Source: an uncultured Lachnospiraceae bacterium
GTDB taxonomy: Bacteria; Bacillota; Clostridia; Lachnospirales; Lachnospiraceae
Reading direction: 5' to 3'
Length of the DNA: 55,844 nt
Assembly: GCA_949502235.1 (NCBI GenBank)
Contig: CATBDC010000022.1
Coordinates: 1 to 55,844 of the forward strand
How positions within the stretch are numbered: position 1 is the stretch's first letter; every line of letters starts with the position of its first letter. The notes beneath the pieces are model-generated. The model had not been told where the DNA came from. It worked only from the letters and a program-made list of their open reading frames with translations, and made no database searches. Below, one piece after another: positions 29,604-43,704 of the stretch. The translations under genes and the position numbers were made by a program.

Positions 29604-30089
29604 ATGTCAGTCAGTCAGGAAGAATTTAAAGAAATGCTGAAGAAAAAGGGGCTTAAGGTTACGAATCAGCGGCTGCTTGTGCTGGAGGTACTGGCGGAAA
29701 ACCGGGACAGGCATATGACTGCAGAGGATATCTATGAGCTTGTAAAGGAGGATTACCCGGAGATTGGGCTGGCAACCATTTACCGGACCGTGCAGCTGTT
29801 GTTAGAAATGCAATTAGTGGATCGCATTAATCTGGATGATGGATGTGTGAGATATGAGATTGGGGAAAATACGTGCGGAGATACGGGCGGAAAGCACCAT
29901 CATCATCATTTAATATGCAGGGACTGTGGAAGAGTACTGTCTTTTAGGGACGATCTTTTAGAGGGATTAGAGCGTCATATTGAGGAGGAGACAGGGTTCC
30001 ATGTGCAAAACCACGAATTAAAGTTCTTTGGACAGTGCAAAAAGTGCCGGGAAAAGCAAAATCAGAACGGAAAGCACGTGGAGGTGTAA
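29604..30089 (+). CDS. Fur-family metalloregulator
   Basis: A 161-residue Fur/PerR/Zur relative. The N-terminal winged helix (KKKGLKVTNQRLLVLEVL, IGLATIYRTVQLL) is followed by a metal-binding C-terminal half with a HHHHH run, CRDCGRV and CKKC, the two structural zinc CxxC pairs. Which metal it senses cannot be told from sequence alone. Placement between DUF1292 and RNase J genes is common in this family of bacteria. Starts 6 bp after the preceding stop and probably shares its transcript. Confidence 0.93.
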   Translation: MSVSQEEFKEMLKKKGLKVTNQRLLVLEVLAENRDRHMTAEDIYELVKEDYPEIGLATIYRTVQLLLEMQLVDRINLDDGCVRYEIGENTCGDTGGKHHHHHLICRDCGRVLSFRDDLLEGLERHIEEETGFHVQNHELKFFGQCKKCREKQNQNGKHVEV

Positions 30090-30091
30090 AT

Positions 30092-31759
30092 TTGAAAAAA
30101 GAGAATAATGGAAGTATGAAGATCATTCCGCTCGGAGGACTCGAGAAGATTGGAATGAATATAACTGCCTTCGAATACGGAGACAGTATTATTGTTGTGG
30201 ACTGCGGTCTGGCATTTCCGGAGGATGACATGCTGGGAATCGACCTTGTAATCCCGGATGTTACGTATTTGAAGGATAATATCCAGAAGGTAAAAGGGTT
30301 TGTGATTACCCACGGCCATGAGGATCATATCGGAGCGCTGTGCTATACCCTAAGGGAGATGAACCTGCCTATCTATGCCACAAAGCTTACGATGGGTATT
30401 ATTGAGAGGAAGTTAGGGGAACATAATCTTTTAAGAAGCACGAGAAGAAAGGTTGTAAAGCATGGACAGTCTATTAATCTGGGGCAGTTCAGAATTGAAT
30501 TTATAAAGACAAATCACAGTATTCAGGATGCGGCGGCTCTTGCTATTTATTCACCGGCAGGAATTGTTGTGCATACCGGAGACTTTAAAGTAGATTATAC
30601 GCCGGTGTTCGGGGATGCCATTGATCTGCAGCGCTTTGCGGAGATTGGGAAAAAGGGTGTGCTGGCGCTTATGTCAGACAGCACAAATGCGGAGCGTGCG
30701 GGCTTTACCCAGTCAGAGCGCACAGTAGGCGCCACCTTTGATCATTTATTTGCGGAGCATTATAATACAAGGATTATTATTGCTACCTTTGCATCCAATG
30801 TAGACCGTGTGCAGCAGATTATCAATTCCGCCTGCAAGTATGGCCGCAAGGTTGTGGTAGAAGGACGGAGCATGGTAAACATCATTCAGGTTGCCCAGGA
30901 GCTGGGATATCTGAATGTACCTGAGAATACACTGGTGGAGATTGACCAGCTGAAAAATTATCCGCCTGAGAAGACTGTGTTAATTACAACAGGAAGCCAG
31001 GGAGAATCCATGGCGGCGCTGTCCCGCATGGCGGCAGATGTGCATAAAAAGGTAACCATCATGCCCGGGGATACGGTTATTTTCAGTTCAAACCCCATAC
31101 CGGGCAATGAAAAGTCCGTATCAAAGGTCATTAATGAGCTGTCGGCAAAGGGGGCAAATGTAATCTTTTCCGATGCCCATGTGTCAGGCCACGCCTGCCA
31201 GGAGGAGCTAAAGCTTATATACTCTCTTGTAAAGCCCAGATACGCCATCCCTATTCACGGTGAATACCGCCACAGAAAAGCCAATGCAGGCATTGCCAGA
31301 GCCCTTGGTATCCCGAAGGAGAACATATTCATGCTGCAGTCGGGAGACGTGCTGGAGGTAAGCAGCGAGTCCGCAAAGGTAGTGGACAAGGTACACACAG
31401 GTGAGATTCTGGTAGACGGCCTGGGCGTAGGAGATGTGGGGAACATTGTCCTTAGGGACAGGCAGCATCTGGCCGAGGACGGAATTATGATAGTAGTCCT
31501 GACATTAGAGCGGGGGAGCAACCAGCTCCTTGCAGGACCGGATATTGTATCCCGCGGGTTTGTCTATGTAAGAGAGTCAGAAGGACTGATGGAAGAAGCA
31601 AGGCGCGTGCTCACTGACGCAGTAGAAGACTGCCTTAACCATCAGAGAAACGCGGACTGGAGTAAGATAAAGCTTGTCATCCGTGATACCATGAACGAGT
31701 TTATCTGGAAAAAGACGAAGAGAAGACCAATGATACTGCCCATTATCATGGACGTATAA
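30092..31759 (+). CDS. rnj: ribonuclease J
   Basis: Metallo-beta-lactamase/beta-CASP nuclease of mRNA decay and rRNA maturation, with 5'-3' exo- and endonuclease activity in the family. Motifs visible are the LGGLEKIGMN start, the metal site THGHEDHIG, LMSDSTNAERAG, a beta-CASP part with TTGSQGES and SGHACQEE, and PIHGEYRH. The start is a TTG at 30092 preceded by GGAGGTG at correct spacing; the in-frame open region upstream lies inside the fur gene. 555 residues, normal. Confidence 0.95.
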   Translation: MKKENNGSMKIIPLGGLEKIGMNITAFEYGDSIIVVDCGLAFPEDDMLGIDLVIPDVTYLKDNIQKVKGFVITHGHEDHIGALCYTLREMNLPIYATKLTMGIIERKLGEHNLLRSTRRKVVKHGQSINLGQFRIEFIKTNHSIQDAAALAIYSPAGIVVHTGDFKVDYTPVFGDAIDLQRFAEIGKKGVLALMSDSTNAERAGFTQSERTVGATFDHLFAEHYNTRIIIATFASNVDRVQQIINSACKYGRKVVVEGRSMVNIIQVAQELGYLNVPENTLVEIDQLKNYPPEKTVLITTGSQGESMAALSRMAADVHKKVTIMPGDTVIFSSNPIPGNEKSVSKVINELSAKGANVIFSDAHVSGHACQEELKLIYSLVKPRYAIPIHGEYRHRKANAGIARALGIPKENIFMLQSGDVLEVSSESAKVVDKVHTGEILVDGLGVGDVGNIVLRDRQHLAEDGIMIVVLTLERGSNQLLAGPDIVSRGFVYVRESEGLMEEARRVLTDAVEDCLNHQRNADWSKIKLVIRDTMNEFIWKKTKRRPMILPIIMDV

Positions 31760-31763
31760 AGAT

Positions 31764-31840
31764 GGGGACAGGGTATTTTTAATTGGGGACGGAGTATTTT
31801 TAAAAATACTCCGTCCCAGATTGGTTTTTACCCTGTCCCC
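31764..31840. repeat. nested palindromic intergenic element
   Basis: Outer inverted repeat of 12 bp (31764-31775 with 31829-31840, GGGGACAGGGTA type) encloses a perfect 32-bp palindrome with 16-nt arms (31786-31801 with 31802-31817). It fills nearly the whole gap between rnj and trmR. The GGGGAC...GTCCCC ends resemble REP/IS200-type palindromes, but the family was not checked. It could act as a terminator or stabiliser. Confidence 0.8.
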
Positions 31841-41078: not shown

Positions 41079-42704
<1,626 letters not shown>

Positions 42705-42737
42705 TCCGTCCGGCTGTAGTGGGCAGATAGGGGGACG

Positions 42738-42996
42738 CAGGTCCGGGGAAAGACAGAGGCTGGGCTGCGGCCTGACACAGAATTCATAAAAAGTATATCT
42801 CACGCAAACGGGACAACACTGCGGTGAACTAACTGTTAACTGCGACTAATACGCTCGGGAGGGCCCTCGCGCATAAGTCTTCGTAAACAGTGGATTTCAC
42901 CTCCGTTAAAAACGTCCCTTAACTGTTTGCTTAGAGATATACTTTTTTGAATTCTGCGCCAGGCCGCAGCCCAGCCCCTGCCTTCCCCCGGACCTG
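42738..42996 (-). repeat. 259-bp near-complete palindrome, candidate structured RNA or MITE
   Basis: Outer arms of 64 and 63 bp (42738-42801 and 42934-42996) pair with five substitutions and one extra base. The interior continues with nested helices: 42804-42809/42925-42930, 42810-42814/42914-42918, 42823-42828/42896-42901, 42832-42837/42886-42891, 42844-42854/42869-42879, around a GAGGGCCCTC tip (42859-42868). All five outer-arm substitutions and one inner one are A-C on the plus strand but G-U on the minus strand, pointing to a minus-strand RNA. No ORF fits it. No target-site duplication is seen at the ends. Confidence 0.8.
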
Positions 42997-43005
42997 CTGT
43001 TCATC

Positions 43006-43078
43006 GCAGCCGCGCAGTCGGAGCAGATTAAGACGAGGGAGTGCAGCCGAAGCCGGAGCAGATTAAGACGAGAGAGTG
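43006..43078. repeat. two direct repeats of about 36 bp
   Basis: Two adjacent copies starting GCAGCCG at 43006 and 43043, each containing a 25-bp core (43019-43043 and 43054-43078) that differs at one base. They lie directly after the palindromic element. The remaining gap up to the next gene (43079-43215) shows a C-rich stretch and a promoter-like sequence, but no gene. Confidence 0.8.
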
Positions 43079-43164
43079 TTATCCCGTCTGCCGCAGGCCC
43101 CCATTTCCTCCAAATCTGCGTCCGCTGCCAAAATCCAAATTATCAGGTGATTTTTACTCACACA

Positions 43165-43175
43165 TGTGATACAAT
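43165..43175 (+). promoter_or_regulatory. possible extended -10 promoter of the DUF6106 gene
   Basis: TGATACAAT (43167-43175) fits an extended -10 element, 40 bp before the start codon. No good -35 hexamer is seen at the expected distance. Confidence 0.4.
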
Positions 43176-43215
43176 GTTTAATAAATAGGAAATTGGATAC
43201 CAGGAGGATAAGAAG

Positions 43216-43704
43216 ATGAGTGATTTTTATACAGAGCAGCTTGTGAAAAAGCAGACAACCATGAAGGATGTGTTTATTAAGGCGCTTCTTGTGGCGGTTG
43301 CGATTGTGTCGGTGTTTGTGGTGCTGATGTTTCCGGTTGCCATTATTGTTCCGGTTGTGGTGATTGCGGCGGTGGTGTTTTTAATCCGGCGGCTGGATGT
43401 GGAGTATGAGTACCTGTATGTGAATGGGGATCTGGATATTGATAAGATTATGCATAAGGCGAAAAGAAAAAGAGTTTTTTCCATGAATATCAGCAGTATG
43501 GAGCTTCTTGCGCCGGAGGGGGCAGACGAGCTTAACCAGTTCCGTAACGCAAGGGTCTTAGACTATAGCTCCGGCATGGCAGACGCAAAGCGTTATGTGC
43601 TTGTGACGGCGGAGAACGGACAGGTTACGAAGCTTGTGTTTGAGCCCAATGAGACGATTATTGAAGGTATGTTTTTAATGGCTCCCAGAAAGGTGAAAAA
43701 ATAA
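43216..43704 (+). CDS. DUF6106 family membrane protein
   Basis: A 162-residue protein with two closely spaced hydrophobic segments (about residues 22-60) and a soluble C-terminal part. The stretch DVEYEYLYVNGDLDIDKIM with KAKRKRVFSMNI matches a protein family common in Lachnospiraceae that I believe is DUF6106. The soluble domain is cytoplasmic by the positive-inside rule and resembles PH-like or regulatory modules only in its strand content. Function unknown. AGGAGGA precedes the ATG. It is followed by the guaB promoter. Confidence 0.75.
   Translation: MSDFYTEQLVKKQTTMKDVFIKALLVAVAIVSVFVVLMFPVAIIVPVVVIAAVVFLIRRLDVEYEYLYVNGDLDIDKIMHKAKRKRVFSMNISSMELLAPEGADELNQFRNARVLDYSSGMADAKRYVLVTAENGQVTKLVFEPNETIIEGMFLMAPRKVKK

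Follow-up and report, generated by a model that had tools for sequence, protein, structure and literature searches.

The window analysed here is a 55,844-nucleotide stretch of DNA from an uncultured Lachnospiraceae bacterium. An open reading frame on its plus strand (41082–42704), which we take to be groEL, is followed by a large hairpin element that lies antisense to it and whose parts are named here on the minus strand. The 3′ foot GTCC (42733–42736; GGAC on the plus strand) starts 28 bases past the groEL stop codon. It is followed by a 3′ outer arm of about 63 bp (42737–42799), a conserved core hairpin (42800–42936) with about 39 consensus pairs, invariant internal-loop bases and the tip GAGGGCCCTC, a 5′ outer arm of about 61 bp (42937–42997), and the 5′ foot GCTGCGATGAACA (42998–43010), all on the minus strand. 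The arms were delimited by a repeat search and arm analysis, the core by BLAST, profile and alignments, and the feet from the sequence, the 5′ foot with the aid of the foot composition in 44 non-composite copies, which gives the family consensus GCNGCCAANAMACA. Between the element and the next gene are two copies of a 31-bp direct repeat (43013–43078), 90% alike and spaced by 35.

A preliminary description of this locus reported that the 259 bp at 42738–42996 fold end to end. The hairpin is present, with a stem flush at 42737–42997, one base wider per side, and folding holds for both strands: the minus strand of the 259 bp gave a predicted RNA fold of −178.4 kcal/mol (z −18.9) and the plus strand −145.4 kcal/mol (z −14.7), values equalled by 0/200 shuffled sequences in each case. 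The repeat search paired 42737–42791 with 42943–42997 (89% complementary) and 42788–42801 with 42934–42947 (100% complementary). On the minus strand, the outer arms contain 58 Watson-Crick pairs, 5 G-U, 0 A-C and 1 gap, and the consensus core pairs contain 37 Watson-Crick and 2 G-U. The one-sided wobbles noted earlier in this copy (five in the outer arms, one in the core, none reversed) are thus as described, and there is a second core G-U, the same pair that is G-U in 43/47 copies of the family. The six of six wobbles in one direction correspond to p = 0.03 (two-sided), without correction for the element having been selected from a 55.8-kb window. The inner ~22 bp of the arms (3′ half 42778–42799, 5′ half 42937–42958, minus strand), delimited from the sequence and the arm length usual in the family, bear foot-like remnants of their own, including what appears to be one, GAATTCTGTGTC, at the outer end of the 3′ half. 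The arms of 61/63 bp give the impression of an inner arm of ~22 bp enclosed by an outer hairpin of the same family, which for this reason may be the older of the two.

The whole 259 bp had no other end-to-end match in its own genome (G000). The inner ~137 nt (42800–42936, minus strand), by contrast, recur about 50 times there: BLAST returned 52 matches, including the self-match of the query on each strand, and a profile found 48 near-full copies, several at or near contig ends. Throughout the analysis, nhmmer copies below the script cut-offs (70 to 110 positions) or too near a locus end were dropped. Thirty of these 48 copies form 15 inverted pairs, mostly with related arms. Outside this genome the distribution is patchy. 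In comparisons with relatives, DNA matches were obtained in 6/61 genomes, and a covariance model built from 47 copies detected the element in 17/250 Lachnospiraceae genomes, the own genome included in both counts. Some carry at least 14 copies; since scoring was limited to 14 candidates per genome, these copy numbers are lower bounds. A degenerate core pattern matched at least 107 stretches in genome_contigs, where the 80 titles listed were Lachnospiraceae, Dorea, Acetatifactor, Eubacterium or Clostridia/Clostridiales. A viral origin was considered and set aside, as one core pattern had no exact match in viral_contigs. Matches in G129 (L273) and G217 are ~180-nt variants, and the core tip of L273 is extended by a further hairpin. 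The earlier comparison with a MITE is apt as regards copy number, and the inability to assign the element to an RNA class also stands: Rfam 15 covariance models matched only tRNA in the whole window at gathering, nothing in 42700–43050 up to E 10, and nothing at gathering in 16 further element loci or in the window element. A literature search found no description of this element family. The copies constitute a family of large, apparently mobile palindromes in some Lachnospiraceae that keep their shape while their sequence changes.

Conservation of the shape was measured in two alignments. Among 47 diverse cores (alignment A2), 33/39 pairs changed on both sides and 95.5% of cells were paired, figures that are flattered by the omission of nine of the 56 cores, mostly irregular in length or tip. 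Core covariation in A2 was 0.493, versus 0.216 in shuffled alignments and at most 0.132 with slid partners. Among the 57 distinct copies aligned with their arms (A1; 57 of 60, with the degenerate L004 and L078 and one L019 copy left out), both-side changes were found in 57/63 predicted pairs. Here and in the counts that follow, related and orthologous copies are each taken as independent. The invariant or nearly invariant bases include unpaired ATCC and TAG and the facing Ts of two T-T mismatches. Paired bases also change more slowly in orthologous copies, which have kept their place since the relatives G002 and G003 diverged: over nine such pairs of copies, 11/1408 paired and 16/537 unpaired bases had changed (p 0.0007). 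The events are few, and of the 10 that affect paired bases a single one is a double change. The structured fold proposed earlier is hence conserved, with very strong covariation, and the copies do not behave as the plain MITE without covariation that the preliminary description had allowed for.

Could the palindrome nevertheless be that of an ordinary decaying MITE, its arms kept alike by template-switch correction and its fold free of selection? Growth of arms by copying is suggested by arms longer than 100 bp and by one palindrome (L083) that extends beyond the feet into the flank, and the near balance of G-U and A-C in the core (see below) would suit such an origin. Correction between arms would, however, erase mismatched internal loops, yet the invariant positions are kept across genera, and the single double change among the paired events in orthologues also speaks against it. 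We regard this explanation as quite improbable.

In most copies the core is clamped by a stem of 19–24 bp whose sequence is nearly free and which stands between fixed feet (CA...GTCC). The left stem was 21 or 22 bp long in 94/110 copies. The 88 distinct arm pairs comprised 1820 Watson-Crick positions, 59 mismatches and 106 gap positions, and 38 distinct non-composite left arms had a median identity of 0.32. GTCC lies directly past the stem in 110/146 copies and CA precedes it in 106/110 of those, frequencies that are biased upward because the foot scan looked for these very letters. Foot positions outside the scanned letters are conserved as well, with C at −9 in 91%, A at −5 in 82% and A at −3 in 80% of the 44 copies that define the 5′ consensus. 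Longer arms like those in the window (61/63) occur at L003 (104/105), L043 (143/145), L025 (56/57), L057 (40/41) and L066 (54/57). Full copies are in several cases adjoined by tandem arm-plus-foot remnants (L062, L064, L072, L075, L076, L077, L078, L079, L002), mostly on the GTCC side; those at L076 and L079 are 5′-foot repeats.

Outside the feet, the flanks look unrelated between single copies. For single copies neither a target-site duplication nor a clean empty site was established, which counts against a mobile folded-DNA element. MITEs of DD(E/D) transposons have terminal inverted repeats and target-site duplications. In the inverted-pair composites, inverted A/T-rich ends lie beside CTGTACGG and no target duplication was established; what looked like a duplication of AAATTTTC seems to belong to those ends themselves. 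In one copy (L281, G003:C6) the element is broken by a small palindrome of another kind (GGAGCCTTAAAG...CTTTAAGGCTCC), with TAA apparently duplicated.

Whether the conserved fold is that of RNA or DNA can be approached through its wobbles. In RNA stems G-U pairs are tolerated and A-C mismatches are not, and the preliminary description had read the one-sided wobbles of the window copy as the mark of a minus-strand RNA. Across the family, the variable core pairs contain 32 G-U and 25 A-C (p 0.43), whereas Lachnospiraceae RNase P RNA, treated alike in the 30 of 60 genomes with loci, contains 85 and 7 (core versus RNase P, p 3e-7). The core was similar under other structures (31 G-U and 20 A-C with another consensus; 35:27 with the 39-pair A2 structure). 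With stricter column cut-offs the core gave 19:25, 18:12 and 9:4 and RNase P 66:7, 36:5 and 6:3, so that the contrast is lost at the strictest. When the constitutive G-U pair was set aside, 16 of the 47 cores had more G-U, 10 more A-C and 21 equal numbers. The ~22-bp arms, counted copy by copy, are less balanced, with 28 G-U and 12 A-C (polarity p 0.017; versus RNase P p 0.002), and core plus arms in A1 gave 92:45. The minus-type strand was the better-folding one in 107/110 copies with RNA energies and in 106/110 with DNA energies. The one-sided wobbles of the window copy do not, then, generalise to the family. The homologous cores come close to the equal numbers of wobbles that would contradict a strand preference, the arms only partly so, and the minus-strand-RNA claim is weakened, although the favoured strand itself is borne out. 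We read these data as one favoured strand with stems that behave more like DNA.

The constitutive G-U pair, the arms and the combined alignment favour the minus strand and so leave room for a structured RNA. In such a scheme the minus-strand fold would act as RNA and copies would spread by reverse transcription and insert behind terminators, as group IIC introns are said to. The invariant unpaired bases, the G-U pair in 43/47 copies, the covariation and the greater stability of the minus-type strand would all fit, as would the G-U excess in the arms and the combined alignment; and the tandem remnants, when they consist of a 3′ arm plus GTCC (L062, L064, L072, L075–L078), resemble 5′-truncated copies. 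Replication slippage would equally yield such remnants, however. Covariation is expected of structured RNA in general, but the strong G-U excess seen in RNase P is lacking, with ratios far lower in the element, and so is an Rfam match. The apparently unrelated flanks speak against it too, and a simple scan of 42500–43300 gave no promoter-like site near the window copy, so that of the earlier idea of an RNA made toward groEL only the orientation, antisense to groEL, has held. A group II maturase was not found in G002, G031, G083, G135, G217 and G230, all draft assemblies. Taken together, we consider an RNA element of this kind unlikely.

Many copies lie close behind open frames. Of 110 copies, 54 have the end of a frame of at least 70 codons no more than 60 bp from their GGAC foot and 77 have one within 200 bp, leaving 33/110 with no such frame ending within 200 bp; these are open frames rather than confirmed genes, and some of 70 codons are expected by chance. 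The 36 of 146 copies that failed the foot scan are absent from these position counts. Among copies whose nearest GTCC-side gene ends toward the element, the end of that gene is at most 60 bp away in 13/22 single and 29/37 other copies, as against 4/28 single and 3/37 other copies for the gene on the opposite side, a control that is biased for inverted pairs by the partner occupying that side. Roughly half of the copies studied lie right behind a stop codon, antisense to the gene and with the GTCC foot facing it. Placement behind a stop codon is a strong tendency and not a rule, since the nearest GTCC-side gene starts there instead in 20/42 single and 27/64 other copies with such a gene. In the own genome, inverted-pair composites (L018, L022, L027, L030 and others) often begin only a few bases from a stop codon, in many cases with the GGAC foot 34–39 bases from the stop. 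A replication-strand bias in G122 (11/14 copies, p 0.057; counted by eye with the origin assumed at base 1) could not be separated from gene orientation.

Two gene ends have different occupants in related genomes. At the first, compared in six genomes, G002 contains a full element, in G003 this element lacks the middle of its core through a deletion, and in G000 an inverted pair begins right at the stop codon; the hairpins of G001, G004 and G005 are of other kinds and by eye resemble ordinary terminators. At the second, G002 contains a full element, G003 the element interrupted by a small palindrome, and G004 an ordinary-looking hairpin. The groEL end varies in a similar manner. It is followed by a full, long-armed element in G002 and in G003, and by a short hairpin lacking the core in G004, where the feet are those of the element, and in G005, where each side carries GGAC/GTCC; in G001 small hairpins form a tandem array there. 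Hairpins that have these feet and no core could represent a separate class, but none was found in 400 kb of the own genome plus the window (perfect stems of at least 14 bp). Deletion of the core, observed directly in G003 at another gene end, is therefore the more likely origin of the groEL hairpins of G004 and G005.

These positions raise the possibility that the element is in essence a giant cis-acting terminator or mRNA 3′-end element, its copies being retained because the hairpin stops transcription or shields the mRNA of the upstream gene, with the core a mere passenger, a role that is compatible with the other explanations discussed here. Its location behind stop codons, the finding that these gene ends hold other structures in relatives, some of them terminator-like hairpins, and the slower change at paired bases in orthologous copies are all in keeping with it. 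So is the T-rich stretch that the 5′ foot forms past the stem on the gene-sense (plus) strand, TGTKTNTTGGC in the family. This stretch is weak in the window copy, however, which has no good T-tract (TGTTCATCGC), making a terminator role doubtful for that copy. Moreover, the better-folding strand is the antisense one, 33/110 copies have no frame of sufficient length ending nearby, and a terminator needs the stem only, the core-less copies in G003 and in G004/G005 suggesting that the core is dispensable. As a full account of the element this explanation appears improbable to us.

An enzyme that would move the element was looked for and not found, which counts against a mobile DNA element. All-against-all clustering of 761 ORFs from element loci (L001–L092, L157–L236), with the 25 largest clusters read by eye, revealed no evident transposase, recombinase or other mobile gene, and thus no evident autonomous partner adjoining the copies. 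A RAYT/IS200-type transposase was rejected as the mover, Y1 being present in 9/15 element-positive and 11/15 element-negative genomes; G083 and G135, with 8–9 copies each, have no PF01797 (Y1) match, both being draft assemblies, and the positive genomes G000 and G031 do have PF01797 matches. At nine RAYT-like loci the adjoining hairpins were of other kinds or absent, and the RAYT-like genes of the genus are adjoined by hairpins of the type GGGACGG...CCGTCCC. The RAYT-like copy of the own genome (L107, G000:C15:40063-40386), downstream of an ORF that we assume encodes a proline-tRNA ligase, is truncated to a 134-aa ORF and has no hairpin, and the frames in G002–G005 are 263–312 aa long. A perfect 16-bp palindrome in the window (GGGACGGAGTATTTTT/AAAAATACTCCGTCCC; 31786–31817), 26 bases past the stop of the ORF at 30035–31759, is of the same type as palindromes adjoining RAYT-like genes of sister genomes (L099, L100, L101, L105, L110). 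At one locus in G031 (L094) a core lies ~1.25 kb downstream of a Y1/TnpB-like pair and ~360 bp beyond the TnpB-like frame, an arrangement unseen at the other loci read. A group II intron maturase was likewise dismissed as the mover, on the six draft genomes named above.

The element can be compared with several known systems. In integron attC sites the sequence varies and the fold of one DNA strand is conserved together with certain unpaired bases, as here, whereas copies of the present element are dispersed and often in inverted pairs. Group IIC introns share a preference for terminators; unlike them, the element has no Rfam match, and their maturase was not found in several multi-copy genomes, all drafts. 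GTAG- and CGTC-REPs, as described in the main text of Di Nocera (2013; PMC3733652), from which the word Firmicutes is absent, are tagged palindromes present in many copies, mostly downstream of genes and often as inverted pairs, and CGTC-REPs are said there to have no known transposase. The present element is similarly a palindrome with a short unpaired motif, in many copies, often behind genes and in inverted pairs, and its conserved unpaired tag at the hairpin foot (GTCC, 110/146 in a scan that searched for these letters) is REP-like. It differs in size, at ~180 nt and more against the 5–13-bp stems given in that text (8–9 bp for CGTC-REPs), and it lacks the hallmarks of the REP/RAYT system, as neither the same hairpins flank the RAYT-like genes at the nine loci nor is Y1 found in the many-copy genomes G083 and G135 (drafts). 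CGTC-REPs carry the CGTC tag at the head of the stem and a CCA tail (PMC3733652); in the present family CGTC falls within the 3′ foot GCGTCC, stems are usually 19–24 bp, and the head tag on an 8–9-bp stem with a CCA tail was not found. ERIC, YPAL and NEMIS, non-coding repeats of about 100–170 bp in different taxa (PMC2267715), are alike by description alone, and a set-length stem of free sequence between fixed feet distinguishes the present element from them as they are described there. In its apparent working, the element seems to resemble REP, ERIC and attC, and the tested features of REP/RAYT (transposase, flanking hairpins) and of CGTC-REPs fail.

We therefore favour, with a probability of roughly 0.55, the interpretation that the element is a non-coding mobile palindrome of the REP/ERIC kind, recognised as a folded DNA strand by a putative trans-acting enzyme. 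The structured strand consists of the 5′ foot, a free stem of 19–24 bp, the rod-like core of ~137 nt, the returning stem and GTCC. It would spread as a folded DNA strand, a hairpin formed on single-stranded or extruded DNA, and an enzyme supplied in trans would recognise the core and feet, by analogy with the mechanism proposed for REPs and attC sites. After insertion, the hairpin base may act as the terminator of the gene, which would keep copies in place; at the two gene ends compared, relatives have a terminator-like hairpin in its stead. A more specific form of this model, which we put forward tentatively, is a class of mobile elements moving as long folded DNA, in which the trans-acting enzyme would read the internal loops of the core, measure about two helical turns of stem and target gene ends, with the element taking over as terminator.

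Short mobile palindromes are common in bacteria. We know of no large palindromes with a strict internal architecture, a free stem of set length and frequent settlement behind stop codons. Comparing the balance of G-U and A-C with that in an RNA from the same family of bacteria offers a simple way that could help to separate DNA from RNA folds in other repeats. If recognition of folded DNA is the correct interpretation, the Lachnospiraceae, common gut bacteria, would possess an enzyme that reads shape rather than sequence.
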